Shown: one piece after another, positions 42,724 to 58,440 of the stretch | How the letters are laid out: each line of letters starts with the position of its first letter | How positions within the stretch are numbered: position 1 is the stretch's first letter | IMG/VR virus record: IMGVR_UViG_3300044679_000029 | Span: 53,102 to 117,101 of that record | DNA length: 64,000 nt | Source of the DNA: a virus | Reading direction: 5' to 3' (one strand) | Translations under genes and position numbers: made by a program | Notes under the pieces: generated by a model | Told to the model about the DNA's origin: nothing | What the model saw: the letters and a program-made list of their open reading frames with translations, nothing else | Database searches by the model: none

Positions 42724-43370
42724 TGTCAACTAAGAAGTTCCGTACAACTATTGTACGAACCGAAGCGGAGAACCTTGAACGAGAAGAACTAATACGTAAG
42801 GCTGCCGATGGCGATGAGATTGCCTTTGAAACTTACTATAAGCAAAATATTAATCTCCTGCGTTCGATCGTAAATCGATGCCATAGACAGTGGCCGAGAG
42901 CTGATGTAGAAAATATCTACCAGGAAGGTCTTATGGGCCTTCTACACGGTATGAAGAAGTACAAATCCGAGAAGCGTAAAACCGGTAGACCCGAATCCTA
43001 CCTATTTAGTTGGGTGCGTGCCTACGCGCGACGGTATTGCGTACAAAACTACCAAGAAGAATCTAATAAAGTTCCGTACGACGAGATTGCTACGAGTGGT
43101 TTCACTACTGCAGAGGACCGAATGGAATACACCGAGCGCTATGGTGATTTTGAAATTCAGGACGCACTTGAGAAATTCTTCAACACACTAAACCCACGTG
43201 ACCAAGTTATCGCTCGCGGGCGATTATGCTATGATACCAAGCGAACACTTAATTCGATTGGTCGAGAATTAGGTGTTTCTCGTGAGCGAATAAGACAGAT
43301 TACTATAGGACTAGTATCTAGGTTCAAGATTTTCGCTGAAAGACATGATGTTGATGTTCATTGGACATAA
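42723..43370 (+). CDS. Sigma-70 family RNA polymerase sigma factor, 215 aa
   Basis: Probably redirects host RNA polymerase to phage promoters. Region 2 lies in about residues 25-110 (NLLRSIVNRCHRQWPRADVE, then YQEGLMGLLHGMKKY). Region 4 is near the end, with the helix-turn-helix TLNSIGRELGVSRERIRQIT. There is no region 1.1 or full region 3, as in alternative sigma factors. AGGAG precedes ATG 42723. The four extended -10 motifs in the window are candidate targets for this or the other sigma protein, which is inference. Confidence 0.88.
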   Translation: MSTKKFRTTIVRTEAENLEREELIRKAADGDEIAFETYYKQNINLLRSIVNRCHRQWPRADVENIYQEGLMGLLHGMKKYKSEKRKTGRPESYLFSWVRAYARRYCVQNYQEESNKVPYDEIATSGFTTAEDRMEYTERYGDFEIQDALEKFFNTLNPRDQVIARGRLCYDTKRTLNSIGRELGVSRERIRQITIGLVSRFKIFAERHDVDVHWT

Positions 43371-43372
43371 AT

Positions 43373-43555
43373 ATGTATAATTTTCGTATAACACCATACT
43401 ATACTTTCGATAGATTTTTAATAAGCCCGAACTCTGGTAGAAAAAATCTTACCGAAGGTATGTGGTATAGAGCCATAATCGATATGTTTGATTTAATATA
43501 TCCAGTGGAGTATAGAGAGATTGATGGTCTATTCAATTCTTGGTGGCTAAAGTGA
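43373..43555 (+). CDS. Y-x6-MF small family protein, member 3 (60 aa)
   Basis: ATG 43373 two bases after the sigma factor stop. It begins MYNFRITPYYTFDRFLISPN. The tail WYRAIIDMFDLIYPVEYREI carries the full motif and the end SWWLK is the typical aromatic terminus. It is a short member with little N-terminal domain. Confidence 0.75.
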   Translation: MYNFRITPYYTFDRFLISPNSGRKNLTEGMWYRAIIDMFDLIYPVEYREIDGLFNSWWLK

Positions 43556-43562: not shown

Positions 43563-44666
43563 ATGTTACTCGTACAGCAAGCTTTACAGAATGGAACGCA
43601 TACACTCGATTCGCTAAGCCGTGACTTGGGTATTAGTGCAACACGGCATAGTCAACGTAATAATCTTGTGCTACTGAAGTACGACATGACTGAGTCGCCG
43701 ATGGACAACCCACTCGTCCAGGAATGTCGTGGATTGATCTTGGACGAAGATAATAACTGGGCCGTGGTCGCGCATCCGTTCAACAAGTTCTTTAACGTTG
43801 GTGAGCCCAACGCAGCAAAGATTGATTGGAACACAGCTAGGGTTCAAGAGAAGGTTGACGGCTCATTGATCTTTATGTATTGCTATAACTTCAAGTGGGA
43901 GATCTCCTCTTCTGGGATGCCAGATGCTGGCGGAAACATCAACGACTCAGCTACTTCGTTTCGCGAGTTGTTTACTCGAACTTTTCATGAACTGGATATG
44001 AAACTCCCGGATCTCGGTCTTGGGTATTATACCTATATGTTCGAGATGATGTCTCCGTTTAATCGTGTGGTTGTTCAGCAGCCAAAAGCTGATATTGTAT
44101 TTCTTGGTGCGCGAAACAATATCACTGGTCAAGAAATATCTCCAGATGAGTGTGGCTGTAGTGAACGAAACTGGAAGCCGGTTCGTCAGTTTGATCTCAA
44201 GACTGAAGCCGATGTTATAGCTACTCTTGAACCTATGAAGGGCCTTGATCAAGAGGGTTATGTTGTTGTGGACGCGAACTTCAATCGAATCAAAGTGAAG
44301 TGTCCAGACTACCGCCGTCTTCATAGGCTCCGGGGTAACGGTAATTTATCGCCGAAGGGTATTTTGGATCTTGTTCGTCTCGGTAATACGGATGAGATTC
44401 TTGCGTCGTTTCCGGAATTTAGTAAGCCATTTGAACGCGTACAGTCGCGGTATGATGCTCTTGTAGATGAGCTAAATGCTGTTTATGCTGGTATAAGAGA
44501 CTTGAAGATTCAGAAAGACTTTGCCCTTGAAGCGGTAAAGCACCGGTGCAGTGGCGCACTATTTCAGTTGCGTGCCGGGCGCGTCACAAACGTAAAGCAG
44601 TTTTTGTCAACGATGGTGTTGGATAACCTAGCAGACACTCTTGAGTTAAAGAGTTTGGAGTTCTAG
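43563..44666 (+). CDS. T4 Rnl1-type RNA ligase
   Basis: Joins RNA ends using ATP, typically repairing tRNAs cut by host defence nucleases. The nucleotidyl-transfer motif EKVDGSL has the adenylated lysine at K97, close to K99 of T4 Rnl1. The upstream NPLVQECRGLIL and downstream FEMMSPFNRVV and EGYVVV strands fit motifs Ia, III-IIIa and IV, and VKCPDYRRLH fits motif V. Length 367 is near T4 Rnl1 (374). It is followed by one-base-overlapping swivel and phosphatase genes. No Pnkp-type kinase is visible in this window. Confidence 0.88.
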   Translation: MLLVQQALQNGTHTLDSLSRDLGISATRHSQRNNLVLLKYDMTESPMDNPLVQECRGLILDEDNNWAVVAHPFNKFFNVGEPNAAKIDWNTARVQEKVDGSLIFMYCYNFKWEISSSGMPDAGGNINDSATSFRELFTRTFHELDMKLPDLGLGYYTYMFEMMSPFNRVVVQQPKADIVFLGARNNITGQEISPDECGCSERNWKPVRQFDLKTEADVIATLEPMKGLDQEGYVVVDANFNRIKVKCPDYRRLHRLRGNGNLSPKGILDLVRLGNTDEILASFPEFSKPFERVQSRYDALVDELNAVYAGIRDLKIQKDFALEAVKHRCSGALFQLRAGRVTNVKQFLSTMVLDNLADTLELKSLEF

Positions 44667-46123
44667 TGGCTCAGGTAGCAAAAACACAAAAAGTCAAAGG
44701 CCTACTTGCATTAAAGAATTCGACCGTGTGGAGTGACGAAGTTCCGCATTTTCGTGTTATCACAAACGACCTGGAACTAACGAACTTCCTTAAGTGCGGG
44801 AAGGGCTTGCGCGATGTAGATTACCCCATATTCGCGCGACCCTGTCCTATCACTCCGCGGCATGGATTTGTTGATTCAACAGTTGTAAACAGTAATAAGG
44901 AACTTAAGGCACTTTGGGTAGCTGCACGTAAAGTTGACCCGCAGGCTGAAATGATTCTTATGAAGCCGGTTGATTGCGTTGCATCGGCTATTCTTACTGA
45001 AAATAAAATCAGTGTTGGTCCAAGTAACGACGGTGCGACGTCAGGTAAGAATACGGTTAATTTGCCGCTATCTAGTCTTACTGTGGTTAGCGAGTATATC
45101 TCAGATTTAGCTGGGGTCAAAGACACAGCATATATCGAAGCGCTATTTCCCAGCGACCATGATGGTCAATTCGCCGTACAGTTGCGGGATGGACCTGCGT
45201 GTAAGACAAATGGTAACCAAATACCCAAGACGACTAAGGTGAAGAAGATCGTAACTACCAGTAGCTGTCATGATCTTCTTGCTTGGGAATCACTGATGGC
45301 GAAGGCTAAAGCCGGTACTGTTGTATACCACAAAGGCGGAAGTCCCCTATCACACTATTCCGTTCATGCCATCTTGAATGATATACCGGTGATTTTCGAC
45401 AAGCCGCCAAAGATTGGTAGCGTATTGAAGGCGAGCAAGAATGCCAATAAGCAATCATTTCCGGTAGAAACTTGTAAAGGCATACATGACGGATTCTCAA
45501 CACAGCTGTGTGTTAAGGATTGTGGTAAAGTCCTTACATTTGCTGTGATGAGTGCACATCATGCTCTTGCTATGATGAACGACCAGGAAGGTAGTTATCT
45601 TGTTGGCGTTGGCGCAGCGCTAATGGTTAGATTAGCTTATACCGCGTGCCTCGGCGAGAATCGGTATTTTACGCATAGGGGTAGTAGAGATGGAATTTAC
45701 AAGAAGGTCTTAACCAAGTACGCCGACAACCGAAAGAGGATGGTACAAGCATATAAGAACTTTAATCTTGATGATGATGATGACTATTTCGATGTTGGTG
45801 GTGCCCCTTGGCGATTATGCGCAAAGACGGCAATACAGTTAGAAAATAGTCTAATAGCATACAGCAAAAAGCCGAATAGAAAAACACTTGAAAAGACTGT
45901 GGCAATCATGCATAATCTTATCAATTGTACCCATAATAATGGATATCTATTCGATAAGTTTGACGGGTACGGTTATCGTTGTGCGAATACGTTTGATCAA
46001 CATGCAGACGGTGATCCTAACGCCGTATTAGATAGTGCTAAGAATTACTATGAGTGGAAACAGTCGTTTCATGTTAGCAAGCATGTTAACCCCAGGAAGA
46101 TGAAACCGGTGATGGCAATATGA
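44666..46123 (+). CDS. PEP-utiliser-type phosphohistidine swivel protein, 485 aa
   Basis: GTG 44666 overlaps the RNA ligase stop. The segment KAGTVVYHKGGSPLSHYSVH followed by ILNDIPVIFDKPPKIGSVL (about residues 213-250) matches the mobile domain of PEP synthase/PPDK-type enzymes, with the conserved SH (H230) that carries phosphate. The N-terminal 200 residues include VDCVASAILTENKISVGPSN, possibly a divergent ATP-grasp-like part. The C-terminal half is helical and unrecognised. Substrate unknown. Lying between an RNA ligase and a phosphatase, it may be part of a nucleotide or RNA-end processing set. Confidence 0.65.
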   Translation: MAQVAKTQKVKGLLALKNSTVWSDEVPHFRVITNDLELTNFLKCGKGLRDVDYPIFARPCPITPRHGFVDSTVVNSNKELKALWVAARKVDPQAEMILMKPVDCVASAILTENKISVGPSNDGATSGKNTVNLPLSSLTVVSEYISDLAGVKDTAYIEALFPSDHDGQFAVQLRDGPACKTNGNQIPKTTKVKKIVTTSSCHDLLAWESLMAKAKAGTVVYHKGGSPLSHYSVHAILNDIPVIFDKPPKIGSVLKASKNANKQSFPVETCKGIHDGFSTQLCVKDCGKVLTFAVMSAHHALAMMNDQEGSYLVGVGAALMVRLAYTACLGENRYFTHRGSRDGIYKKVLTKYADNRKRMVQAYKNFNLDDDDDYFDVGGAPWRLCAKTAIQLENSLIAYSKKPNRKTLEKTVAIMHNLINCTHNNGYLFDKFDGYGYRCANTFDQHADGDPNAVLDSAKNYYEWKQSFHVSKHVNPRKMKPVMAI

Positions 46124-46887
46124 TTAATAAGTTTGAAAATACTGTAAAGAAGATAGAGGAGAGATTATCGACACCGACGTCTACCACAACTAAGCCCGCT
46201 ATAACCTGGAGTCAGATGGACCACGAAGGTGGTGTCACCGAAACTTCGACTGGTGATCGTATCGTATCGGAGAAGTTCGATAAGTCTAGTAAGGTTGAAG
46301 TGATTGAGGAGGATTGGCCTACCGAGGTAAAGAGTTCGACACCTGCGCGCGATAACGGCGGCTGGAATAGTAGTAAAGTCTACAGCGGTTTTAGTTTTGC
46401 AAAAGACTGCCATAAGGTATATAGCCCGGATAAGCACTCTCCACTATTTACTATAAGTAAATCCAAGATATATCCTGGTAGGTTGTCTGAGCTATCGGAC
46501 AGCGGTTCGTGGAATCTCGTGATTGATTGTGCTAATGGCCAATATCGTAGTGGTGGGTATTACGCCCCCATGGAGTATCAGGATCTGGAAAAGTATGTTA
46601 TTCCTGTCATTACGCTTCCGTGGGAAGACATGTCACCTCCGCCTGTGCAGCCAGAATTCTGGATCAATCTCGTTAAGAGACTGCCGCCAGGTAACATTGG
46701 CGTTGGTTGCGTTGGTGGTCATGGTCGTACTGGTACCGCTATTGCGGCTATGTTAATATGTAGTACAAGTAAAAATGCTACTCAGGCTATCCGTTGGGTG
46801 CGTAGGGAATACTGCGAAAGCGCCATCGAAAATGATGCGCAGGAGAAGTATCTATTTGTACTTGAAAAGAAGCTAGGACGTAAGTAA
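46120..46887 (+). CDS. Protein tyrosine/dual-specificity phosphatase-like
   Basis: The signature C-x5-R is seen in VGCVGGHGRTGTA, with nucleophile C197 and phosphate-binding R203. A candidate general acid Asp lies upstream in PWEDMSPPP. The first 90 residues are polar and probably disordered. It overlaps the swivel gene by four bases (ATGA). It could act on phosphoprotein, phospho-RNA ends (as in the RNA 5'-triphosphatase branch of this family) or the swivel product. The RNA ligase neighbour makes an RNA substrate worth testing. Confidence 0.8.
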   Translation: MINKFENTVKKIEERLSTPTSTTTKPAITWSQMDHEGGVTETSTGDRIVSEKFDKSSKVEVIEEDWPTEVKSSTPARDNGGWNSSKVYSGFSFAKDCHKVYSPDKHSPLFTISKSKIYPGRLSELSDSGSWNLVIDCANGQYRSGGYYAPMEYQDLEKYVIPVITLPWEDMSPPPVQPEFWINLVKRLPPGNIGVGCVGGHGRTGTAIAAMLICSTSKNATQAIRWVRREYCESAIENDAQEKYLFVLEKKLGRK

Positions 46888-48041: not shown

Positions 48042-48239
48042 ATGTCACCAGTAGTTTGGATCACTGCACTAATCATGCATGCATACCCGATTTTTACACA
48101 GCAACAAGCTATTCATTTGGCCGAAAACGCTGTGGTAGTTTGCGAAGCAACGGTTGGTGAAGTCGAGACCAGACCTTTCATGAAATGTATCTTAGATACT
48201 ATTCCTGGCGTTGTTGATTCGGCAACGAGAAATGAATGA
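48042..48239 (+). CDS. Hypothetical small protein, 65 aa, possibly exported
   Basis: GGATGGAGG lies just before ATG 48042. It begins MSPVVWITALIMHAYPIFTQ, a moderately hydrophobic leader, and two Cys (VVCEATVG, KCILD) could form a disulfide if exported. It overlaps the family gene at 48236 by ATGA. Confidence 0.55.
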   Translation: MSPVVWITALIMHAYPIFTQQQAIHLAENAVVVCEATVGEVETRPFMKCILDTIPGVVDSATRNE

Positions 48240-48457
48240 AAGTAGCCAGGTTTTGGGTATTCTGGCAGCAAACTTCTATGCAACCTCACGGCTATAAAAT
48301 ATGGTACTATAACCATGACAATACTCAGGTTAGTCATTATTATAGCAACAACGAGGGCATAACATTAGCCTATGTTTTTGCGGTTAACAAGATGTTCGAT
48401 AGTTTATACTACAGAAAAACAACCGAGACGTACACGACCGCAGATTGGGTTCTATGA
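48236..48457 (+). CDS. Y-x6-MF small family protein, member 5 (73 aa)
   Basis: Motif AYVFAVNKMFDSLYYR and the end ADWVL are present. It begins MKVARFWVFWQQTSMQPHGY, rich in aromatics. First of three tandem members joined by ATGA overlaps (48236, 48454, 48678) just ahead of the DNA ligase. Confidence 0.78.
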   Translation: MKVARFWVFWQQTSMQPHGYKIWYYNHDNTQVSHYYSNNEGITLAYVFAVNKMFDSLYYRKTTETYTTADWVL

Positions 48458-48681
48458 ACGGTTTTGCGTTATTATGGAATAAGGAGAAGGGAAACTACAG
48501 TGTGCGCTTTAGTAATAATGTTAATACTAAGACTAACCCAGCGAATTGGGCTATTCTATTTAGTCGACACGATAATCCAATCAGACGGTACATGTATATG
48601 AGCGCTCTCACCGACATGTTCGATATAGTTTATGCCCGCATCAATAATGACTATGATCGTCGGATATGGATACTAAGATGA
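48454..48681 (+). CDS. Y-x6-MF small family protein, member 6 (75 aa)
   Basis: Motif MYMSALTDMFDIVYARINND, end IWILR. The start MNGFALLWNKEKG is similar to that of member 7 (MKGFALCLTQEYF), suggesting recent duplication between these neighbours. ATGA overlaps with both neighbours mark coupled translation. Confidence 0.8.
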   Translation: MNGFALLWNKEKGNYSVRFSNNVNTKTNPANWAILFSRHDNPIRRYMYMSALTDMFDIVYARINNDYDRRIWILR

Positions 48682-48908
48682 AAGGTTTCGCTCTGTGTCT
48701 AACACAAGAGTACTTTGAACACAGATATTACGGGCTTCGCGTACTGACTCGTGACACAAAAATGAATATAGATAAAGCCCCTATTTCATCAGTACCACAT
48801 AATCTCGGCCCTCCGAATATTAAAGAGTACATTGAAGCGTGTAATATAGTGTTTGATAGAATTTACGCACGTGTAGAATTACCACCCGTTAGACGGTGGT
48901 TAGTTTAA
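48678..48908 (+). CDS. Y-x6-MF small family protein, member 7 (76 aa)
   Basis: Motif EYIEACNIVFDRIYARVELP with Val in place of Met, end RRWLV. Closest visible relative is member 6 just upstream. It ends nine bases before the DNA ligase ATG. Confidence 0.78.
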   Translation: MKGFALCLTQEYFEHRYYGLRVLTRDTKMNIDKAPISSVPHNLGPPNIKEYIEACNIVFDRIYARVELPPVRRWLV

Positions 48909-48916
48909 GGAATAAG

Positions 48917-50020
48917 ATGGAATTTCAGACACTATATAAGAAAACTTCAACTAATGCGACACAAAGCTGGACTGTATCCACAGCAGATAATATTATTACT
49001 ACTCGTTGGGGACAAGTAGACGGTAAAATCCAGGAGACCTCGGAAACAATCAAAGAGGGCAAGAATCTTGGAAAGAAAAACGCAACAACTGCGATTCAGC
49101 AGGCCGAGTTTCAAGCCAAGTCGCTTTGGGAAAAGAAGCTTAAGTCTGGATACGTAAAGAGTATCGAAGATGCTAAAGCTGGTAAGGTCGACAAAATTAT
49201 TAAGGGCGGCGTATCACCGATGCTTGCGCAGAAGTTTTCTGAGCGTGGCCAAAAGATTATCTACCCTGCGGCAGCGCAACCTAAACTCGACGGACACCGC
49301 TGTATTGCTATCCTTAAGAACGGTAAATGCACTCTTTGGAGTCGTAAACGTCAAGCGATTACGGGTTTACCACATATAAATAAGGAGATCGAGGATAATT
49401 TTACCGGCGGTGTAATACTCGACGGTGAATGTTATAACCACGCTTACAAACATAACTTCGAAGTTCTTAGTAGTTTTATTCGATCAAAGACACCGAAGCC
49501 TGGCTGTGAGGTTGTGCAATATCATGTGTACGATACTATAAATAATCTACCGTACAACGAACGACTGCAACTAATAAAGACTTTTCCGTTTGTTAATAAG
49601 TACCTCAAGCGTGTTAAGACTCGTTTAGTTAACGATGAAGACGAACTCATGCTCGCGTTTGAAGAGTTTCTTTTGGATGGGTATGAAGGTGCTATGGCCA
49701 GAAACTTGGCTAGCGTATATGAAGTTGGTAAGCGCTCTAATGATCTCCAGAAGATAAAAAAGTTCGATGATACAGAAGTCCTGATCACTGGTGTGAAAGA
49801 AGGTCACGGAAAACTTGCCGGTCATGCTATATTTCTTTGTGAAACATACAAAAAGGTTCCGTTCGAAGCAAAGATGCGCGGTGAGATTAGTAAATTGAAA
49901 GAGTATTTTGACCACCCAGAAACTGTAATTGGTGAGAAACTTACTATTAAGCATCAGGGCTGGACGAAGGATAATAAACCCAGATTCGTCGTAGCTTGGC
50001 GACTACGTGAGGATATATGA
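48917..50020 (+). CDS. ATP-dependent DNA ligase with N-terminal WGR domain
   Basis: Seals DNA nicks. Residues about 5-80 form a WGR domain (ITTRWGQVDGK, then LGKKNATTAIQQAEFQAKSL), a DNA/nick-sensing module best known from PARPs. The catalytic domain follows: motif I QPKLDGHR with K123, DGECYNH (motif III-like), YEGAMARN (motif IV), LQKIKKF (motif V), and an OB-fold part ending WRLREDI. ATG 48917 is preferred, with AAGGA six bases before it. Such WGR-ligase fusions occur in a few phage groups. Lagging-strand joining or repair is the expected job. Confidence 0.88.
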   Translation: MEFQTLYKKTSTNATQSWTVSTADNIITTRWGQVDGKIQETSETIKEGKNLGKKNATTAIQQAEFQAKSLWEKKLKSGYVKSIEDAKAGKVDKIIKGGVSPMLAQKFSERGQKIIYPAAAQPKLDGHRCIAILKNGKCTLWSRKRQAITGLPHINKEIEDNFTGGVILDGECYNHAYKHNFEVLSSFIRSKTPKPGCEVVQYHVYDTINNLPYNERLQLIKTFPFVNKYLKRVKTRLVNDEDELMLAFEEFLLDGYEGAMARNLASVYEVGKRSNDLQKIKKFDDTEVLITGVKEGHGKLAGHAIFLCETYKKVPFEAKMRGEISKLKEYFDHPETVIGEKLTIKHQGWTKDNKPRFVVAWRLREDI

Positions 50021-50118
50021 TATTTGGACCAGAAGATAATGACGACATGGAAGATTACGATGATGAAAATGAAGAAGACCCGGATGACATCTGGACCGAT
50101 GATCTTGTGGAAGACTAA
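50017..50118 (+). CDS. Highly acidic miniprotein, 33 aa
   Basis: ATGA overlap with the ligase stop and TAATG overlap with the next gene fix the frame. About 18 of 33 residues are Asp or Glu (DDMEDYDDENEEDPDDIW). Such charge could mimic DNA or bind a basic partner. Phage acidic mimics such as Ocr are larger, so function is open. Confidence 0.6.
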   Translation: MIFGPEDNDDMEDYDDENEEDPDDIWTDDLVED

Positions 50119-50348
50119 TGACGTTCGGGGATATTAATTTCTCGTTCGTGACCACTAGATTTCCTTATTTCTGGATAGAACATCTGCCAGAATATTTTTC
50201 GACGTCTAGTTATGTCGACAACTTTATCGAGGAACATCCTTCAGGTTACGCAGCGGCGGTTATTGATATGTTTGATCGTGTTTACACTCGCCATGAACTC
50301 CGGCTGTCTGAGAGTATCTCTGTTCCGGTTTGCTGGTGTTTTAAATAG
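50118..50348 (+). CDS. Y-x6-MF small family protein, member 8 (76 aa)
   Basis: Motif GYAAAVIDMFDRVYTRHELR, end CWCFK. The first half is aromatic-rich (INFSFVTTRFPYFWIEHLPE). It follows the acidic miniprotein with a one-base overlap. Confidence 0.78.
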   Translation: MTFGDINFSFVTTRFPYFWIEHLPEYFSTSSYVDNFIEEHPSGYAAAVIDMFDRVYTRHELRLSESISVPVCWCFK

Positions 50349-50357
50349 GAGGTTACA

Positions 50358-50699
50358 GTGTCAAGAACGTTAAAAAAGAACATTAATAAGCTGAAGCCGC
50401 GTAATCATATCACCAAAGAAATGATTACCAATAAGCGTAAAACTGGGCCACATACTGACCGTAAGAAGCAGGCGTCGAAGGATGCTTGTGACGAGTTCGA
50501 GATCGACGAGCCTGTGTGTGCAGACTGTGGAGGGCCATACATCCAAGGAAGTAGCGAGAGTTGTGATAATGCGTTCCACCGTTGTCGTGATTGCATCTAC
50601 GACGACTGGGGCGATTTGGTCGACAAGTGTGTTGCTTGTGGGCTTGCGTCTGATTTCTTGGAAGACGATATGCCCGCTGTTGACGGAGAAGATTTCTAA
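50358..50699 (+). CDS. Zinc-binding protein, 113 aa
   Basis: GTG 50358 with AGGAGG upstream. The N-terminal third is very basic (LKKNINKLKPRNHITKEMIT). The C-terminal half has VCADCGG, HRCRDC and KCVACG, i.e. three C-x2-C pairs, enough for a treble or double zinc site. A basic arm plus zinc ribbon suggests nucleic-acid binding. It ends with an acidic tail. Confidence 0.7.
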   Translation: MSRTLKKNINKLKPRNHITKEMITNKRKTGPHTDRKKQASKDACDEFEIDEPVCADCGGPYIQGSSESCDNAFHRCRDCIYDDWGDLVDKCVACGLASDFLEDDMPAVDGEDF

Positions 50700-50700
50700 T

Positions 50701-51099
50701 ATGAAAAAAGAACTCGATGAAGAGTTGTGTAAGAAGTATCCAAATCTGTACCGCGACAGAAACGAGCCGCCAAGTAAGAGCTGTCTTCATTGGGGATTTC
50801 CCCGTGATGGCTGGTTCGAGTTAATCGATAAGGCATCAGCAGTCCTTGAGGCCGAGATTCTCAAACTTCCAGAGGAGCAAAGAATCGATTACCGCGCCTC
50901 TCAAGTTAAAGAGAAGTTTGGAACATTGCGGTTCTACCTACACAACGAAACAGACGCGATGCGTGCTGCAATAAGGGTAGCTGAAAGCGAATCAGCGAAG
51001 ACTTGTGAGCAGTGTGGTCATCCTGGTCAGTTGGACAAAACTCGTCCGTGGATGCTTACGCTTTGTTCACAGTGTAGTTCTGCAAGAAATTCTGGATAA
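50701..51099 (+). CDS. Conserved phage protein, C-terminal zinc ribbon, 132 aa
   Basis: ATG 50701 follows the upstream stop by one base. The layout W-GFPRDGWFELI...QVKEKFGTLRFYL...AESESAKTCEQCG...LCSQC is a familiar uncharacterised phage protein pattern. The first part is a helical KEKFG domain and the last part is a four-Cys ribbon. Function unknown. It recurs in many tailed phages near small accessory genes. Confidence 0.75.
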   Translation: MKKELDEELCKKYPNLYRDRNEPPSKSCLHWGFPRDGWFELIDKASAVLEAEILKLPEEQRIDYRASQVKEKFGTLRFYLHNETDAMRAAIRVAESESAKTCEQCGHPGQLDKTRPWMLTLCSQCSSARNSG

Positions 51100-51101
51100 A
51101 T

Positions 51102-51506
51102 ATGACAATATTTCTTATAGCGATGGTACTACTTCTTAGTGGTGTACTGCTGGCCGCTGTTCTTGGTGTTCCAGGTGAGCGTAAACGAAAATCCAAGGCC
51201 GCTCAACTCATAGAAGCTATAATGATAAACTACGAATATCTTAACGCTATTCACGTTGCCACTATGACCGATATGTGTAGGTGGGAGACACTTAAGAGAC
51301 AAGCAGAACAAATGCTACTGTACAATGAAATCGCTAAAACTATACCGGGATTTCCCACTTTGTCCGTCGGGTATGAAAGAGGAACTAGGAACATTATTTC
51401 GCTCCTCGAACAGCATGAAGCAAAGCCTACTGAAACACCGGTAAAGAAACAAAAGAAGCCGATGCCGTCGTATTTGCAGTTAGTTAAAAATGATCAGCTG
51501 AACTGA
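51102..51506 (+). CDS. Membrane-anchored protein, 134 aa
   Basis: One N-terminal hydrophobic helix (FLIAMVLLLSGVLLAAVLGV, residues 4-23) is followed by a basic stop-transfer stretch (RKRKSK) and a helical cytoplasmic part. The end is Lys/Pro-rich. It lies two bases after the ribbon protein and 19 bases before the TPM-domain membrane gene, so the two may share an envelope role. Confidence 0.65.
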   Translation: MTIFLIAMVLLLSGVLLAAVLGVPGERKRKSKAAQLIEAIMINYEYLNAIHVATMTDMCRWETLKRQAEQMLLYNEIAKTIPGFPTLSVGYERGTRNIISLLEQHEAKPTETPVKKQKKPMPSYLQLVKNDQLN

Positions 51507-51525
51507 TCTGGAGAAAATAATTTAT

Positions 51526-52482
51526 ATGTTTACAGCTATTTTGTTTGCAGCACTGGCGTCATCTCCCGTTGTTGTCGATCAAGCGCATCTACTAAACGAC
51601 GAGCAGACGCTGGCAGTTCAGAAGGAGTTTAGCGAAATTCAGAAGGACGACCATGTAACCATGGGTCTATTTACATTGCCCACGTCCACCGACATCAAGA
51701 GTCAGGCGTATCAGGCTATTAACCAGTTTGACCTCGGTCCTAATAGCGTTGTGATGCTTGTGTCTATGCAGCCTAGGAAGATTTATATTCAGCCTGGGAC
51801 GCAACTCGCTAGCAGGTTCTCTTCATCGACCGTTGACAGTCTCGTCAAGTCGTCGATGGTACCTGCTATGGGTAGCGGTCGGTATGGAGACGGTATCATT
51901 CGCGGTGTCAAGGCCGTGCGTAGTACACTAGAGGATTCCTGGCATCTCGGCTGGTGGCTATTCGGGCTACTGATTGTGGGTTTGCTTGGCTATCTGTTCT
52001 GGCGGCGCACTGAGGTTATCGTTGTGCGAACACGTTTTATCAACATGCACCAAACGGGGTCCTATTCGGCGTCTGGGGCTCGGCCTGTTAGCCGCTATAC
52101 TCGTCGCGAGTCTAGTGGTGGTACTACCGTTATCAACAATAATACCGGCGACGGCTTTATTGAAGGCATGCTTATCGGTGACATGCTCAACAATCGAGGC
52201 AGTCAGTCTGTTCCCGCGGTGCAACCGAGTGCTCCTTCACCTAGCTATCAGGATGGCGGTAGCCTAGGAGGCGGTGGCGCTAGTTTCGACGATGCTCCTG
52301 ATACTTCCGGTGGTGGTAGTGATTTTGGCGATACTTCCGGTGGCGGCTCTAGCTTCAGCGATGACTCGGGCAGCGGATCTGATGTCGGTGATTCCAGCAG
52401 CGGCGGCTCCGATTTCGGCGGTGGCTCTGACTCCGGTGGTAGTTTTGACGGCGGAAGTAGCGGCGGTGGTAGCGACTTCTAA
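51526..52482 (+). CDS. TPM-domain membrane protein with Ser/Gly tail, 318 aa
   Basis: A signal-peptide-like start (MFTAILFAALASSPVVVDQA) is followed by a TPM/Psb32-like domain: VDQAHLLNDEQTLAVQKEF, then VTMGLFTLPTSTDIKSQAYQ, then GPNSVVMLVSMQPRKIYIQP. The transmembrane helix WWLFGLLIVGLLGYLFW is at about residues 145-161. The cytoplasmic part is polar and ends in about 80 residues of Gly, Ser and Asp. Bacterial TPM proteins are poorly understood envelope or phosphatase-like factors. A strong terminator follows, so this gene ends the transcript. Confidence 0.8.
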   Translation: MFTAILFAALASSPVVVDQAHLLNDEQTLAVQKEFSEIQKDDHVTMGLFTLPTSTDIKSQAYQAINQFDLGPNSVVMLVSMQPRKIYIQPGTQLASRFSSSTVDSLVKSSMVPAMGSGRYGDGIIRGVKAVRSTLEDSWHLGWWLFGLLIVGLLGYLFWRRTEVIVVRTRFINMHQTGSYSASGARPVSRYTRRESSGGTTVINNNTGDGFIEGMLIGDMLNNRGSQSVPAVQPSAPSPSYQDGGSLGGGGASFDDAPDTSGGGSDFGDTSGGGSSFSDDSGSGSDVGDSSSGGSDFGGGSDSGGSFDGGSSGGGSDF

Positions 52483-52504
52483 ACTACTGCCTAGTTAATT
52501 AGAG

Positions 52505-52535
52505 GGCCCTCTAGCGAAAGTTAGAGGGCCTTTTT
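52505..52535 (+). terminator. Intrinsic terminator
   Basis: Nine-bp stem GGCCCTCTA/TAGAGGGCC, eight-base loop, then TTTTT. It lies 23 bases after the TPM gene stop and before the family gene at 52552. Confidence 0.9.
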
Positions 52536-52551
52536 AATTGGAGTTATAAGA

Positions 52552-52782
52552 ATGAAAGCCTTTTGGGTCGATGTGCGCCCGACGAATAGGGATATGCGTT
52601 ATTGGTTTACTGCTGACTTGAGTCTTGCTGCATCAGGAGTAGTATATATGACGGAAATAATCCCGCGTACTTTACAAGACAAATATTATAAACTATGTTG
52701 CGGGATGTTTAATAGAATATACGCACCGTTGTCTGATAAGTATCAGGTTAAAAATAGTTTGCGCGGATGGATACTACTATGA
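52552..52782 (+). CDS. Y-x6-MF small family protein, member 9 (76 aa)
   Basis: Motif KYYKLCCGMFNRIYAPLSDK, end RGWILL. It begins MKAFWVDVRPTNRDMRYWFT. Located right after a terminator, so it needs its own promoter or read-through; none is clear. ATGA overlap with the next gene. Confidence 0.75.
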   Translation: MKAFWVDVRPTNRDMRYWFTADLSLAASGVVYMTEIIPRTLQDKYYKLCCGMFNRIYAPLSDKYQVKNSLRGWILL

Positions 52783-52976
52783 AAACCACTAAAATAACGT
52801 ACATCATAGAATCAAGAAGTAATCTACCAAGTAATAAGTGGCATACTGTATTTCAAGGAACGAGTTCCGTTCGTGCGCACCAGGAGTATAAGCGAATATG
52901 TAGACGAGACCCGTTCATGAACCATAAGTTCAGCGTTACTACGACGACAACTGTTGAGCTAGCGAGGACCGAATGA
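52779..52976 (+). CDS. Hypothetical protein, 65 aa
   Basis: ATG 52779 (ATGA overlap) is preferred over ATG 52767. It begins MKTTKITYIIESRSNLPSNK. Basic beta-type protein with a Thr run (SVTTTTTVELA). The first residues resemble starts of some family members (MKTT-I), but the MFxxIY tail is absent, so it could be a chimera of the family N-terminus with another end. Confidence 0.6.
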   Translation: MKTTKITYIIESRSNLPSNKWHTVFQGTSSVRAHQEYKRICRRDPFMNHKFSVTTTTTVELARTE

Positions 52977-53203
52977 AGCTCCTAAACAGGGCTCTGTATA
53001 CCGGAACCGAGTGGTTATATAACAAGATCTACCCAGATAACAGAGATAAGCCCGAGCAAATCGAATTGTTTGATGGCGACTCCAAAGTACTACACGGCAC
53101 GAAGTTGACTCGGAGTGGTAATAGAATTCTAGTTACGAGTGAGGGTAAGGAATTCGTTATCTTCATAGGAAGCAAGGAAAAGATTGTTGGCTTTAGAAAA
53201 TAA
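52973..53203 (+). CDS. Hypothetical protein, 76 aa
   Basis: ATGA overlap with the preceding gene. It begins MKLLNRALYTGTEWLYNKIY. The rest is beta-type (LTRSGNRILVTSEGKEFVIF). No family or metal motif. Its stop is followed by a terminator hairpin, so it ends this short transcript. Confidence 0.65.
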   Translation: MKLLNRALYTGTEWLYNKIYPDNRDKPEQIELFDGDSKVLHGTKLTRSGNRILVTSEGKEFVIFIGSKEKIVGFRK

Positions 53204-53217
53204 TATAGACTAGAGAG

Positions 53218-53245
53218 AATGTCCTAGCCGGGACATTTTCTTTAG
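53218..53245 (+). terminator. Intrinsic terminator
   Basis: Seven-bp stem AATGTCC/GGACATT, six-base loop, then TTCTTTA. It separates the 52.5-53.2 kb genes from the promoter at 53267. Confidence 0.8.
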
Positions 53246-53253
53246 CTTACATA

Positions 53254-53275
53254 ATACCACAAAATGTGGTATAAG
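53254..53275 (+). promoter_or_regulatory. Extended -10 promoter (motif copy 3) with overlapping inverted repeat
   Basis: AATGTGGTATAAGA, with TATAAG at 53270-53275. A perfect 7-bp inverted repeat ATACCAC-AAAAT-GTGGTAT (53254-53272) covers the extended -10, an obvious place for an operator. It drives the zinc-ribbon block from 53324. Confidence 0.65.
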
Positions 53276-53323
53276 AATATGAGCTTCTAATGTAGTATTT
53301 TACCCACAACCAAGGAGTACTAA

Positions 53324-53524
53324 ATGCGCAACTTGACTGAGCTGCTGAACATGCCGTACTACCCGGGACACACCGAAGATTGCCCTGTGTTACAAGGCGT
53401 TCAGATTTGTGATTGCGGCGCGTCTTTGGCCACGGCGCTGATGATTGTTGCCGAGAGGGAAGCTGCACCACGGCAACAGGATCAATTGTTGCCGGCTCGA
53501 TCGGAACTCTGCACCGAGCGCTAA
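53324..53524 (+). CDS. Small Cys-containing protein, 66 aa
   Basis: AAGGAG is seven bases before the ATG. It begins MRNLTELLNMPYYPGHTEDC. HTEDCPVLQGVQICDCG offers H/C ligands for one zinc. The second half is helical with Gln/Arg. First gene after promoter copy 3, with G/C-ending codons unlike the AT-rich family genes. Confidence 0.6.
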   Translation: MRNLTELLNMPYYPGHTEDCPVLQGVQICDCGASLATALMIVAEREAAPRQQDQLLPARSELCTER

Positions 53525-53525
53525 C

Positions 53526-53741
53526 GTGACCCGTACAGAATACTGGGTCATGCGTGAGGAAGATATCCCTCGCGAGCGCGGTGGCCTAGTGGTTCATGTA
53601 CGAAACATTCCAGTCATTGCGATGGAGACGTCGTATGATGACGCACTAGGTTCACTGGCGGAGTTCACGCGGCTGAATCCCCAGTTTGCTGGGTCGTACA
53701 CGATTGTAACCCTAACTCTTGAGACATCGAGGAAACCATGA
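53526..53741 (+). CDS. Hypothetical protein, 71 aa
   Basis: GTG 53526 right after the previous stop gives MTRTEYWVMREEDIPRERGG. It is a beta/alpha small protein with no metal or membrane motif. ATGA overlap with the next gene. The longer frame upstream belongs to the neighbouring gene's sequence in another frame and is not used. Confidence 0.55.
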   Translation: MTRTEYWVMREEDIPRERGGLVVHVRNIPVIAMETSYDDALGSLAEFTRLNPQFAGSYTIVTLTLETSRKP

Positions 53742-54085
53742 AATTAGCGGAGGAGTTGGCAAAGGCTGTTCTTCAAGCGTTCTTCAAGAATGGTGATTTC
53801 AGAGATATGACAACCGGCGATAGGCCGCTGGCTGTCGCAGCGGCAGAGAAGGTGCTGGAACAGAAAGCCGAGGAAGAGATCGCAGACCTGAATAAACCGG
53901 TTGGTGAACAGGTCTTCGAGTTTCAGCCAGACTCGGACGTCCTGTTCGACTCTGAAATTGTTGCCAAGCGCTGTGAAAACTGTGGCGACCCTGCGACGTG
54001 CGGGGAGAGGTGTTCGGCCTGCTGTACTGGTTGTGCAAACGACGCGGTTGACGCCGACCGGTTATATAAAGGAGCCCGCAAATGA
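53738..54085 (+). CDS. Protein with C-terminal Cys cluster, 115 aa
   Basis: It has a helical start ([20 protein letters not shown]), an acidic middle and [20 protein letters not shown] (about residues 80-99) with seven Cys in 18 residues, followed by another Cys. Two zinc ions could bind in a treble-clef or ribbon arrangement. ATGA overlaps on both sides. Function unknown. Confidence 0.65.
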
Positions 54086-54270
54086 AAATCGGACGAAACG
54101 ACCCGTGTCACTGCGGAAGTGGCGTGAAGTACAAGAAGTGTCACTGGTGGAAGGAGAGCCAGAAGAATGTCCCGGATCGTGGGGCGGAGAAGCGTACCGC
54201 AAACAGGACCGGAAGTTCGATTCGCAACATGTTGGCTCTGATTCCGTTCATCGGAATTGGTAGTCGCTAA
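54082..54270 (+). CDS. SEC-C motif protein, 62 aa
   Basis: The first 25 residues, [20 protein letters not shown] followed by H, match the SEC-C zinc motif (C-x-C-x8-C-H) found at SecA ends and in many small proteins. It is followed by a basic linker and a short hydrophobic end ([11 protein letters not shown]). Here the motif is N-terminal, so the protein is essentially a free SEC-C finger. It may bind SecB-like or ribosomal partners, by family analogy. Confidence 0.75.
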
Positions 54271-54283
54271 TAATAACAACCTT

Positions 54284-54365
54284 GTCCGTCCGGCGCCGGT
54301 TTGGCGGTGGATTGATCTGACTGCGAAGGTCCTGGATTCAGATCCCAGGACTGGACCGGACGGAC
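54284..54365 (+). other. Structured 82-base element, long-range stem
   Basis: A perfect 10-bp stem (GTCCGTCCGG with CCGGACGGAC) closes about 60 bases that themselves can fold: CGCC-GGTTT-GGCG, and GTCCTGG-ATTCAGAT-CCAGGAC-type arm. It lies in the gap between the SEC-C gene and the next zinc gene and is followed by ATCTTTTC. It could be a structured terminator, a small RNA or a degraded tRNA-like element. Confidence 0.5.
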
Positions 54366-54386
54366 ATCTTTTCAAACGGAGGAAAC

Positions 54387-54563
54387 ATGTCGACGAAGGC
54401 AGAGCGAGTGAAGCTGGGAGAGTGTGTGAGTTGCCCGAAACAGGCGCACGTTGACGAAAAGACTGGCAAGCGGCGGCGCGCTTGTCCCGCGTGTCTCGCA
54501 AAAAACAAGGCACGACCCGATAAGAAGATTGACAAGTGGGCTGGAATGGACGATGCATGGTGA
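54387..54563 (+). CDS. Four-Cys zinc-ribbon miniprotein, 58 aa
   Basis: ACGGAGGA precedes ATG 54387. It begins MSTKAERVKLGECVSCPKQA. C-x2-C (CVSC), 18 residues, C-x2-C (CPAC) form a simple ribbon, with many Lys/Arg between. The tail ends WAGMDDAW. It overlaps the next zinc gene by seven bases. Probably nucleic-acid binding by charge. Confidence 0.65.
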   Translation: MSTKAERVKLGECVSCPKQAHVDEKTGKRRRACPACLAKNKARPDKKIDKWAGMDDAW

Positions 54564-54757
54564 AAACAAGCTTCTACTGTCTGCACTGCAAAAATACGTG
54601 GGAGTTGCCGGCGTGTCTGGTTCATCCCACAAATAAACCAGGCAAGGGCTGGATAAACTGCGATAAGTGTCACTGCGCCTGTCCAGAGTGTGGCGGACAG
54701 ACAATCTACCAGAGGAACGTAAATGTCGAGACAAATAATACCGCAAATCTGGTGTGA
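54557..54757 (+). CDS. Zinc protein with eight Cys, 66 aa
   Basis: Begins MVKTSFYCLHCKNTWELPAC. Cys pairs YCLHC, NCDKCHC and ACPEC give two potential zinc sites in the first 48 residues. The start ATG 54557 lies inside the end of the previous gene, suggesting coupling. The tail is polar. Confidence 0.62.
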   Translation: MVKTSFYCLHCKNTWELPACLVHPTNKPGKGWINCDKCHCACPECGGQTIYQRNVNVETNNTANLV

Positions 54758-55007
54758 GATTCCAGAGTGGGTGATTAAGAAAGCGTTGAGAGACCCGCTG
54801 GGCGAGGACGATAGTCTCACGTGTACAATTTTTGTTTTCTTAGACCCGCACAAGAAAGCTCTTGAAACCGCAAAGCAGTGGCGACGAAACTGGTGGTATT
54901 CTCCGTGGTCCGCAAATAGACCCGACGGCGATCCTGGTTGGACACCAGATATGCCAGAAGAAGCCGAACGGTGGTTAAAAAACCAAGGGACATGGAGGAC
55001 AAAATGA
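54723..55007 (+). CDS. Hypothetical protein, 94 aa
   Basis: AGAGGAA stands before ATG 54723, which overlaps the zinc gene by 35 bases. It begins MSRQIIPQIWCEIPEWVIKK. Trp-rich (RRNWWYSPWSANRPDGDPGW) and helical toward the end. No known motif. Compact globular protein of unknown role in the zinc-ribbon block. Confidence 0.6.
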   Translation: MSRQIIPQIWCEIPEWVIKKALRDPLGEDDSLTCTIFVFLDPHKKALETAKQWRRNWWYSPWSANRPDGDPGWTPDMPEEAERWLKNQGTWRTK

Positions 55008-55363
55008 ACAAGCCTACTTGTCAGCGCGCGGCGGAACATAACTGCACGAATCCTGTAGAAGTACGGTGCGTGGTTTGTGAAGCCTTTCTCTGCAAACGAT
55101 GTCATGACAGCACTGGGTGTAACGGTCATGAAGTAAGTCAGGACCGAGAGATTCTGAAAAGCGTGTTAAGCGAACATATTAACACGATGATCGTCACGAG
55201 TACTGACTTCATCGCGGCTAAGGCGGCGTGGAATAAGGCCGTTGTCGCGATAAACGCAGCTATCGTCAAACGCAACAAAATTGAAGAAGGCTGGCCAGAA
55301 GCTGCGGCAACTTTTGCTGAAGCAAAGAAAACACTTGCGATCCAGGTCGGTTGGACTTGGTAA
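55004..55363 (+). CDS. B-box-like zinc protein, 119 aa
   Basis: GGAGG precedes ATG 55004. The first 45 residues hold CTNPVEVRCVVCEAFLCKRC, then CH and GCNGH, a C/H pattern like a B-box or cross-brace zinc fold. The rest is a helical Ala-rich domain (AKAAWNKAVVAINAAIVKRN). The earlier in-frame ATG 54992 lies inside the preceding gene's coding end and is less likely. Confidence 0.65.
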   Translation: MNKPTCQRAAEHNCTNPVEVRCVVCEAFLCKRCHDSTGCNGHEVSQDREILKSVLSEHINTMIVTSTDFIAAKAAWNKAVVAINAAIVKRNKIEEGWPEAAATFAEAKKTLAIQVGWTW

Positions 55364-55371
55364 GGAGTAGT

Positions 55372-55554
55372 ATGCCGTATCCGGTGCTGTTTTATCTTGG
55401 TTGCATCATACTTGGGTTGGTCGCCACGTTCAGGCCGCTATGGTTGGCGTATCTGATGCTCTGCATGTTGTTGTCCTTACTGGCAGGGATGACTTGGTAT
55501 CTATTCTACCTCCTCATATACTGGTTGTGCGGCAAAGACCCTAGGTGGCCATGA
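55372..55554 (+). CDS. Two-span membrane protein, 60 aa
   Basis: GGAG before ATG 55372. It begins MPYPVLFYLGCIILGLVATF. Hydrophobic throughout, with likely helices at residues 4-20 and 25-50 (WLAYLMLCMLLSLLAGMTWY), and a short charged end (CGKDPRWP). The layout is that of small holin-like or inner-membrane proteins. No lysis gene lies next to it, so a holin assignment is not made. Confidence 0.65.
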   Translation: MPYPVLFYLGCIILGLVATFRPLWLAYLMLCMLLSLLAGMTWYLFYLLIYWLCGKDPRWP

Positions 55555-55775
55555 ACCTCGAAGATCTTCTAACGGAACGCGAAAAAAATAAGAAGTATCT
55601 TCCTGGGGAATATCATCGCGGCTTTGACGAAGCACTCGCGATGATGATTCGTAAATCACAGGAAGAGGGAAACGAGGTCTACACTCGTTGTAACAGATGT
55701 TTGGATTTTCTGATTGATGGTAGGTGTCCGAAGAAGTTTTTGCCGTGCTTCGGAAATACGTTTGACACTAAATAG
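55551..55775 (+). CDS. Small zinc protein, 74 aa
   Basis: ATG 55551 overlaps the membrane gene stop (ATGA). The helical first half (MNLEDLLTEREKNKKYLPGE) is followed by TRCNRCLDFLIDGRCPKKFL with C-x2-C and two further Cys. Fits the ribbon proteins around it. Confidence 0.6.
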   Translation: MNLEDLLTEREKNKKYLPGEYHRGFDEALAMMIRKSQEEGNEVYTRCNRCLDFLIDGRCPKKFLPCFGNTFDTK

Positions 55776-55782
55776 GAGTAAC

Positions 55783-56352
55783 ATGACAACCAAAAAGAAG
55801 ACAGCAAAGAAGTCACCGAAGAAGTTCAAGTCTGTGGAAGTTGCGATGACGCAGACTGAAACAAACCTCGTGAGGACGCTTAACGAGAGTTTTGACGCGC
55901 TCTACGTAGCCGTCACCGATGGCGTAAATCGATTAGAAGACCGGGTCGAGGAAGTCGAACTTGCTCTCGCCGATGTCATCACGAAGGACTGCTGCGCCAC
56001 GCATAGAGAAGAAAAGGCCGTTGAAACGCCGGAGCCTCAAGTGTGCATTCTTTGCGGTAAACCTGCTACTGTTGTAGAACAATACGAAAAGTGCGGCCAG
56101 GAGTACTTAGTCTGCTCTAAGCACAGGACAAGGTCGAGACCCATTCTGGCGGATACGGCCGCGGCGCAGGCCAAAATCGACCCGTTCGAAGCTGCGCCGA
56201 TCAGTGGCGTGGAAGAAGACGGAAGTTGGAAAGACAGGCTGGATAACGATCTTCGTGCCAGCAAAGCGCCCGTCTTCTGTCCGTATTGCAACAAGACGGT
56301 GTACGTCGGGAACGATAAGTGCAAGTTTCCGAGGAATCATCACAGTCGGTAG
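55783..56352 (+). CDS. Coiled-coil and zinc-ribbon protein, 189 aa
   Basis: GGAG precedes ATG 55783. A Lys-rich start (MTTKKKTAKKSPKKFKSVEV) is followed by a helical coiled-coil-like segment (LNESFDALYVAVTDGVNRLE), then CILCGKPA...CSKH and a C-terminal CPYCNKTVYVGNDKC. It has two separate zinc sites. It is the last gene before the terminator at 56372 and ends the GC-richer block. Confidence 0.68.
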   Translation: MTTKKKTAKKSPKKFKSVEVAMTQTETNLVRTLNESFDALYVAVTDGVNRLEDRVEEVELALADVITKDCCATHREEKAVETPEPQVCILCGKPATVVEQYEKCGQEYLVCSKHRTRSRPILADTAAAQAKIDPFEAAPISGVEEDGSWKDRLDNDLRASKAPVFCPYCNKTVYVGNDKCKFPRNHHSR

Positions 56353-56371
56353 GCCGCGTACTAAACCAAGA

Positions 56372-56400
56372 GCCCCAGATTCTTTGGGGCCTTGTTTTCT
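56372..56400 (+). terminator. Intrinsic terminator ending the zinc-ribbon block
   Basis: Six-bp stem GCCCCA/TGGGGC, seven-base loop, followed by CTTGTTTTCT. Directly afterwards base composition drops and the tandem small-protein array begins. Confidence 0.8.
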
Positions 56401-56412
56401 AGACTGGAATAA

Positions 56413-56652
56413 ATGAGATTTAAATTAATGTCTTTTACTGATAAAAGTTGTGGATGGTGCGTGTCTATTTTTATAGATAGCAATACTAATACTGACGAAT
56501 ACTACATAACGCCGTTCAGCCGGAGAAGTTTGTTACCAGAGAAATATTTTGAACTGTGCTCAAGTATGTTTAATACCGTGTACAAGATACATCTGATAAA
56601 TGAAGATGAGTTCGGCGACAAGTTACCGCCCAACAGCTGGGAACTATACTAA
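56413..56652 (+). CDS. Y-x6-MF small family protein, member 10 (79 aa)
   Basis: First gene of the dense array. Begins MRFKLMSFTDKSCGWCVSIF. Motif KYFELCSSMFNTVYKIHLIN, end NSWELY. Its stop abuts the ATG of member 11 with no gap. Confidence 0.8.
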   Translation: MRFKLMSFTDKSCGWCVSIFIDSNTNTDEYYITPFSRRSLLPEKYFELCSSMFNTVYKIHLINEDEFGDKLPPNSWELY

Positions 56653-56817
56653 ATGCGCAGACAATATTACTGGTGGGATCAAATGGGTCCGGACAGTAGG
56701 ATGCGGTTCTATCCATATGCTTCCCGTAACTTAATTTACCTGGAATTGATGACGTGTATGCTTGACCATATTTACCAACGCGACGTTGGCGGTAGTGGTG
56801 TTTTTATATTGGAGTAA
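56653..56817 (+). CDS. Y-x6-MF small family protein, member 11 (54 aa)
   Basis: Short copy: MRRQYYWWDQMGPDSRMRFY, motif IYLELMTCMLDHIYQRDVGG with Leu for Phe, end VFILE. It starts at the codon after the previous stop. Despite its length the motif and end are complete, so it is a real, compact member. Confidence 0.72.
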   Translation: MRRQYYWWDQMGPDSRMRFYPYASRNLIYLELMTCMLDHIYQRDVGGSGVFILE

Positions 56818-56818
56818 A

Positions 56819-56977
56819 ATGAAAACAAGTTTTGTTATTAAATCTAGACAGAGATTTTCAATCTCGTATGACGATACAGGCAGCTGTGCAGACTGGATGA
56901 AATATCATAATGAATTAGTATTTCCGATGCTCAGTTTAATTTACCGGTTTGATAGTTTACTATGGATATTACTATGA
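56819..56977 (+). CDS. Y-x6-MF small family protein, member 12 (52 aa)
   Basis: Begins MKTSFVIKSRQRFSISYDDT. The motif region KYHNELVFPMLSLIYRF has one extra residue between Tyr and Met. End LLWILL. Shortest member. ATGA overlap with the next gene. Confidence 0.7.
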   Translation: MKTSFVIKSRQRFSISYDDTGSCADWMKYHNELVFPMLSLIYRFDSLLWILL

Positions 56978-57198
56978 ACTTTACTATACGAAACTACAAA
57001 AAGTACATGGATAGGTGGTTTTGGGATTACTTGACGTTTGCTGAGCGAAGAGATCTTGATTTTAAACTTCCGTTTACGGATGCCGCCGAATGTAGTAGTT
57101 ACTTCAGTCTTTGTGTCGACATGTTTGACACCGTTTATAAGCGAGCGGGGACTGAATTTCTGACGATGGATGGCGTATCTTTATGGGAATTAAAATGA
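56974..57198 (+). CDS. Y-x6-MF small family protein, member 13 (74 aa)
   Basis: Motif SYFSLCVDMFDTVYKRAGTE, end SLWELK. Begins MNFTIRNYKKYMDRWFWDYL. LCVDMFD is shared exactly with member 14, two genes on. Overlaps the lipoprotein gene by ATGA. Confidence 0.8.
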   Translation: MNFTIRNYKKYMDRWFWDYLTFAERRDLDFKLPFTDAAECSSYFSLCVDMFDTVYKRAGTEFLTMDGVSLWELK

Positions 57199-57434
57199 AA
57201 GTTCTAATTTTGTTGCTCCTAACTTCTTGTGGCAGTGCTTTTGAGTATGGTCCGGACGACGGCGGAAATATTTGTAATGGATCAGTGATACCGGACGGCG
57301 CCGTGTGTTGTAGTCCTGGCGAGATGTTGTCGGGTGATTACTGCCCAGAGAATTATGTCTGCTGCTCGATTGGGTGTGTGCAGTCTACTGAAGTTGATGT
57401 TGTAAATAGCACAGGAATTGAGAGTTGTGACTAA
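57195..57434 (+). CDS. Cysteine-rich small lipoprotein, 79 aa
   Basis: ATG 57195 (ATGA overlap). The N-terminus MKVLILLLLTSCGSA has a proper signal with lipobox LTSC, so the mature protein would start at Cys12 and be lipid-anchored. The mature part has eight further Cys (CNGS, VCCS, YCPEN, VCCSIGC and one at the end) and is acidic, suggesting a disulfide-stabilised surface domain. It interrupts the family array. Superinfection exclusion is one known job of phage lipoproteins; here it is only a guess. Confidence 0.75.
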   Translation: MKVLILLLLTSCGSAFEYGPDDGGNICNGSVIPDGAVCCSPGEMLSGDYCPENYVCCSIGCVQSTEVDVVNSTGIESCD

Positions 57435-57646
57435 TGGCTAACTATATGTATATCACGAACCCGGAACGTTGTCGCTGGGCTCCTGTCGCGAAATTTATTG
57501 TGGGTACAGATCCTATTTACGGTGTCATATTTTATCCTAGGACACGCGTCGACGCAAGCGAGTACGCAAAACTGTGTGTAGACATGTTTGATTTGGTGTA
57601 CGCAAGAGTGCACAATAACCCGTCGTATAAATTCATGTTAATATGA
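57434..57646 (+). CDS. Y-x6-MF small family protein, member 14 (70 aa)
   Basis: Begins MANYMYITNPERCRWAPVAK. Motif EYAKLCVDMFDLVYARVHNN, end KFMLI. Start overlaps the lipoprotein stop by one base (TAATG), and the end overlaps member 15 by ATGA. Confidence 0.8.
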   Translation: MANYMYITNPERCRWAPVAKFIVGTDPIYGVIFYPRTRVDASEYAKLCVDMFDLVYARVHNNPSYKFMLI

Positions 57647-58036: not shown

Positions 58037-58037
58037 A

Positions 58038-58244: not shown

Positions 58245-58246
58245 AA

Positions 58247-58438: not shown

Positions 58439-58440
58439 TT

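Follow-up and report, generated by a model that had tools for sequence, protein, structure and literature searches.

The window analysed here, 64,000 nucleotides corresponding to positions 53102-117101 of the 117,101-base IMG/VR virus record IMGVR_UViG_3300044679_000029, contains three overlapping plus-strand genes that encode, in order, an RNA ligase (43563-44666), a protein with a candidate phosphohistidine swivel (44666-46123) and a phosphatase (46120-46887). This linear record may not be complete, which bears on absences within it. The ligase and swivel-protein genes share one nucleotide in TAGTG (stop codon 44664-44666, GTG start at 44666) and the swivel-protein and phosphatase genes overlap in ATGA (46120-46123); the trio had been placed at 43563-46887 by an earlier sequence-only reading, and these coordinates proved exact. 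The second and third genes are probably a fused version of an apparently undescribed phage module. Its parts in the window are listed below with the ligase; HNNG is the name given here to a domain whose separate-gene form is phrog_20946 (motif LAHNNGxIFNKG), and PEP is phosphoenolpyruvate.

43563..44666, plus strand: T4 Rnl1-type RNA ligase, 367 amino acids (Pfam, PHROG and motifs)
43851-43865, 44253-44267 and 44292-44312, plus strand: ligase motifs KVDGS (residues 97-101), EGYVV and KVKCPDY, read in the sequence
44666..46123, plus strand: fused protein, 485 amino acids, with an N-terminal ATP-grasp/swivel-like region and a C-terminal HNNG domain
44834..45196, plus strand: conserved block, residues 57-177, ARPCP..PRHGFV / DPQAEMI / YIEALF / VQLRDGP, putative ATP-grasp (PEP-synthase N-domain) landmarks
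45335..45355, plus strand: GGSPLSH, residues 224-230, candidate phosphohistidine swivel by motif (S229-H230)
45653..45961, plus strand: HNNG domain core, residues 330-432, GENRY ... GGAPW ... THNNG..FDKF (hhalign and profile)
46120..46887, plus strand: DSP/PTP-type phosphatase, 255 amino acids (phage PTP profile, hhalign and motifs)
46621-46635, plus strand: WEDMS, candidate general-acid loop by motif (D170)
46708-46728, plus strand: CVGGHGR, Cys-x5-Arg signature (C197, R203)

A profile of 19 phage phosphatases returned the window phosphatase at 1.3e-19 among about 1,200 open reading frames (ORFs), hhalign against phage PTPs gave a probability of 99.4% (E = 3e-21), and the comparison with phrog_17568 gave 5e-17; the protein falls under the Pfam cut-offs. 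With CVGGHGR present and the Cys-x5-Arg motif intact it looks active, in agreement with the C-x5-R phosphatase that had been predicted. The best Pfam matches of the phage PTPs, mostly sub-threshold, are Tc-R-P (PF22785) and PTP-SAK (PF22784), DSP/PTP families of conflict systems that share the Cys-x5-Arg signature; unlike these, the phage PTPs form a family of their own (phrog_17568) tied to HNNG. Members of this family (among them DLP5_143, DLP3_141 and CAU_VPP01 WKC56083) are labelled 'thymidylate synthase' in GenBank and PHROGs, which, judged by sequence and profiles that point to phosphatases, is a misnomer.

The 485-residue protein had no match in the Pfam, PHROG, NCBIfam or PADLOC families, and a known defence family was rejected on the PADLOC result. 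A tblastn search of annotated phages matched a single lineage, podovirus ct9yY11 and three near-identical records (E = 6e-18 over residues 4-187 in ct9yY11). The ct9yY11 homologue, with 569 amino acids and 34% identity over a MAFFT alignment, keeps both the residue 57-177 block and S229-H230, and the gene after it, which overlaps it, encodes a DSP-type phosphatase. No Rnl1 over the cut-off was found in the complete 41-kb ct9yY11 genome, and the pair formed by the second and third genes, rather than the trio, is therefore what is shared with the podovirus. Locus searches that started from the swivel protein, from the alignment of the pair or from the podovirus homologue retrieved no relatives. 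The order of the landmarks ARPCP..HGFV, AEMI, YIEALF, VQLRDGP and GGSPLSH matches the PEP synthase layout; a landmark regular expression, written with the target in view, was matched by 0/831 other ORFs and 3/20000 shuffles. These motifs suggest that the N-terminus is likely a dikinase (ATP-grasp plus swivel). A single-sequence AlphaFold model of the window protein had a pLDDT of 34.

The C-terminal part was assigned to HNNG by two comparisons. A two-sequence window/podovirus alignment matched 61 HNNG proteins in hhalign with 94% probability (E = 1.4e-7), and a profile of 10 divergent HNNG proteins, from which the window and podovirus proteins had been left out, recovered the window protein at E = 1.1e-3 and the podovirus protein at 4.8e-4, the only matches above threshold among the ORFs searched (about 1,200). 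The domain lies directly upstream of the phosphatase. Conserved residues of the family are RExRH, GGxxW, D, HNxGxxFNK and LDxQ; the window domain shares with phrog_20946 the landmarks ExRH, GGxxW and HNxGxxF(N/D)K, whereas the window/podovirus form is fused to a putative dikinase and is without some of the conserved residues. A window FDQ was dropped as the counterpart of LDxQ, that stretch lying inside a 36-nucleotide direct repeat. The two copies of this repeat (34/36 identical; window 45971-46006 and 52014-52049) fall in the HNNG-domain coding region and, in a different reading frame, in a TPM-domain gene; there is no third copy in the 117-kb record, and the stretch is missing from the podovirus homologue. 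With the 61 HNNG sequences, AlphaFold predicted an all-helical core (pLDDT 93.6) for which no matching PDB entry was found (best E = 0.48). A handful of significant matches to viral models we take to be the HNNG family itself. The domain plausibly holds an active or substrate-binding site. HNNG was found in 40 phage records, a degenerate HNNG DNA pattern matched 29 of the retrieved loci, and tblastn of plasmids did not find it.

When phages were searched with E. coli PEP synthase, genes annotated as 'pyruvate phosphate dikinase' (PPDK) were recovered from phages of Vibrio, Stenotrophomonas and Rhodobacter, each adjoining a PTP gene and an HNNG gene (phrog_20946), with a second PTP gene in several phages. 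The separate HNNG gene occurs in phages of Vibrio, Stenotrophomonas, Rhizobium and Rhodobacter in the order dikinase-phosphatase-HNNG-(phosphatase), and cultured carriers of the module include DLP5, SIO-2, LV6 and RcZahn. All 13 phage regions that were read had the dikinase-PTP-HNNG order beside DNA polymerase. A small protein, weakly CsrA-like in RcZahn and LV6, is usually encoded between the dikinase and the first PTP. An independent scan of IMG/VR, for which 119 loci were chosen by the phosphatase motif alone, found PTP in 118, HNNG in 100 and a dikinase in 63, the last rising to 29 of the 32 loci having at least 4.5 kb upstream. HNNG adjoins PTP in further divergent records too, and in a split form of the module (loci L082 and L134) the swivel, HNNG, PTP and ATP-grasp (PPDK_N) are separate ORFs. 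The occurrence of fused, ordinary and split forms argues that the dikinase, HNNG and PTP work together.

We propose, with a probability of roughly 0.6, that the genes at 44666-46887 represent, in compact and fused form, a conserved phage phosphotransfer module composed of a dikinase, HNNG and a Cys-x5-Arg phosphatase. The ATP-grasp domain would use ATP to phosphorylate the swivel histidine, His230 in this protein; the swivel would then hand the phosphate over to an acceptor that the HNNG domain holds. The PTP-type enzyme would remove or trim that phosphate, or act on the next intermediate. Linkage, fused and split arrangements, an intact phosphatase motif, the absence of a pyruvate/PEP barrel and an HNNG fold with no PDB match are observed; the catalysis and direction of phosphotransfer, and the dikinase identity of the window N-terminus, are inferred. 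The acceptor may be a host or phage protein or a small molecule, might less probably be phage DNA, and has small and similar chances of being RNA ends or something else. Glucan water dikinase with SEX4 or laforin offers a case in which a dikinase and a dual-specificity phosphatase act on one phosphorylated substrate; this is an analogy only, and no glucan-binding domain was recognised in the phage module proteins.

Several observations weigh against this proposal. The 13 regions come from mostly related phages, so that their synteny is partly inherited and by itself weak evidence of function. Several divergent HNNG-PTP records have no recognisable PPDK_N or PEP-utilizers domain, and the dikinase may therefore be dispensable or replaced. 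In the window protein the HNNG signal is modest (E about 1e-3), E201 and D205 (DLP5 numbering), which are conserved in the main HNNG family, are not kept in the fused form, and the podovirus homologue lacks the GG before SH. The window ATP-grasp/swivel was not significant by any profile (hmmsearch, hhalign, PF00391 and a tailored swivel profile); of the PEP-synthase-like swivel with SH at 229-230 that the sequence-only reading described, the SH stands, within GGSPLSH, while the domain is assigned at motif level. This missing profile support, with the HNNG-PTP records that have no recognisable dikinase, would fit a chance operon in which HNNG and the phosphatase alone are relevant, with an unrelated domain at the N-terminus, but the ordered landmarks R..GF[AV]..E..QxR..SH agree with the layout of a dikinase and stand at the usual place of the dikinase gene, and we think such an arrangement unlikely. 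A different objection is that the dikinase is simply metabolic. The vibriophage gene has been published as PPDK and as a glycolytic auxiliary metabolic gene (PMC12038007, PMC9229204, PMC10141217), under which reading the phosphatase would be unrelated; the available portions of these accounts of the dikinase gene make no mention of the HNNG/PTP linkage as a module, and one of them describes a barrel on the basis of a predicted model. The phage dikinases do match the PPDK nucleotide and swivel domains strongly, having PPDK_N and PEP-utilizers domains as do PPDK/PEP synthase, Rph and PigC/RedH; their swivel also matches Rph and PigC/RedH models, and split ATP-grasp/swivel ORFs occur among the phage module loci. 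Our results disagree on the barrel: PF02896 (PEP-utilizers_C, the PEP/pyruvate barrel) was found in 0/27 records, this one included (controls 14/14), the DLP5 dikinase aligns to the PPDK model over the nucleotide and swivel part and ends at about position 528 of 865, and the fused and split forms leave no room for a barrel. Unlike PPDK and PEP synthase, moreover, the phage dikinases are persistently linked to HNNG and PTP, and the window form, in contrast to PPDK-type enzymes, is recognisable by motifs alone. Because the barrel is missing, the 'PPDK auxiliary metabolic gene' label looks wrong; the phosphate acceptor is not pyruvate, and a glycolytic role, rejected on the barrel's absence from 27/27 records, is very improbable.

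The first gene encodes an Rnl1-type ligase, as had been read from the sequence: it passes Pfam RNA_lig_T4_1 (PF09511; E = 5.4e-19, 69.4 bits against a cut-off of 28.3), carries the KxDG nucleotidyl motif and matches phrog_562 at E = 6.7e-52, with a match to TIGR02308 (1.6e-19) under that model's equivalog cut-off. It is the one Rnl1 copy in the record. In phages SYP and phiPMW, which have the nearest relatives examined (about 34% identity), a polynucleotide kinase-phosphatase (Pnkp) gene lies directly downstream of Rnl1 or one small ORF away, a place that the swivel/phosphatase pair occupies in this phage. Neither AAA_33 (controls 14/14) nor the SYP Pnkp as query (no positive control) revealed a T4-type Pnkp in the 117 kb of the record, and the statement that no Pnkp-type kinase is visible thus holds across the whole, possibly incomplete, record.

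These features invite a role in RNA end-healing, in which the dikinase would phosphorylate 5'-OH RNA ends, the phosphatase would clear 3' phosphates and Rnl1, intact and part of the overlapping operon, would seal, Pnkp being replaced. The record also has a PTH2-type peptidyl-tRNA hydrolase (record 25102-25584, 7.5e-30); ribosome rescue in jumbo phages has been connected with this family (PMC7824862). The arrangement resembles T4 Rnl1-Pnkp tRNA repair in that an Rnl1-type ligase is followed by a putative kinase and phosphatase pair at the relatives' Pnkp place, but the putative kinase and the phosphatase belong to unrelated families and elsewhere the module is unlinked to ligases. Rnl1 over the cut-off was found in neither the 50 IMG/VR module records nor the 14 complete phage genomes (0/64 in total; the positive control worked), and RtcB in 0/26 module records; because IMG/VR records are mostly fragments, the absences there are weaker than those in the 14 genomes. 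The module is therefore not generally the partner of an RNA ligase, and the podovirus with the same fused form likewise has no Rnl1. Conserved linkage of all three genes, the check that the sequence-only reading had suggested, gave inconsistent neighbours, the conserved unit being the second and third genes; its idea of an alternative end-healing chemistry keeps the Pnkp place of the pair in its favour and has the ligase-free modules against it. We consider RNA end-healing quite unlikely, and RNA repair is probably not the module's main job, although the pair may have a side role of this kind in this one phage. The ligase is an overlapping neighbour here, probably co-expressed, and lies outside the conserved module. 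Phage DNA is a further candidate acceptor. DLP5 DNA is cut by 4 of 36 restriction enzymes (PMC5834331) and DLP3 DNA is resistant to 15 of the 15 tried (PMC7326821); both phages carry the module, and restriction resistance is the only phenotype found for module phages. The heavily modified DNA of these two phages, and the module's position next to DNA polymerase in that phage group, would be consistent with the module phosphorylating phage DNA, on a base or a sugar, or else a precursor, as one step of a hypermodification that blocks restriction. Phosphorylated intermediates are known from thymidine hypermodification. Against this, a thymidylate-synthase-fold hydroxymethylase was found in 0/27 records, so that a hydroxymethyl-pyrimidine acceptor from such an enzyme is unsupported and hydroxymethylation of this kind was rejected as the common substrate source; other candidate modification genes are present in the DLP phages, and literature restriction data for the remaining module phages were not found. 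DNA modification is a doubtful reading, and the connection between the module and restriction resistance is a lead rather than a result.

In the window, ThyX (16156-17055) adjoins a deoxynucleotide monophosphate kinase gene (17057-17581). About 20 small ORFs of 65-90 amino acids have a common motif like YxxxxxMFDLIYxR and make up a large paralogous family (window about 43361-43555 and 48236-61721); the RNA ligase gene has one member immediately upstream. Outside the window, a single 1,455-residue ORF (record 27758-32125, minus strand) combines RNA polymerase domains of the beta-like (Rpb2) and beta'-like (Rpb1) kinds, and two sigma-like genes occur elsewhere in the record. A DNA-ligase neighbourhood comparison did not find close relatives of this phage. 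Loci L003, L004, L029 and L030 were set aside as chance matches.

We know of no comparable phosphate-transfer pathway in phages. The conserved module may, tentatively, represent a widespread phage system in which a histidine swivel would relay phosphate from ATP onto a new acceptor that HNNG holds, with a phosphatase dedicated to the system; DNA or a component of the host, in modified form, would be the product. One testable module replaces two labels, the 'PPDK auxiliary metabolic gene' of vibriophages and the 'thymidylate synthase' of the phosphatase, and HNNG adds a protein family whose predicted fold lacks a PDB match. The module may also be relevant to the so far unexplained ability of DLP5 and DLP3 DNA to resist restriction.

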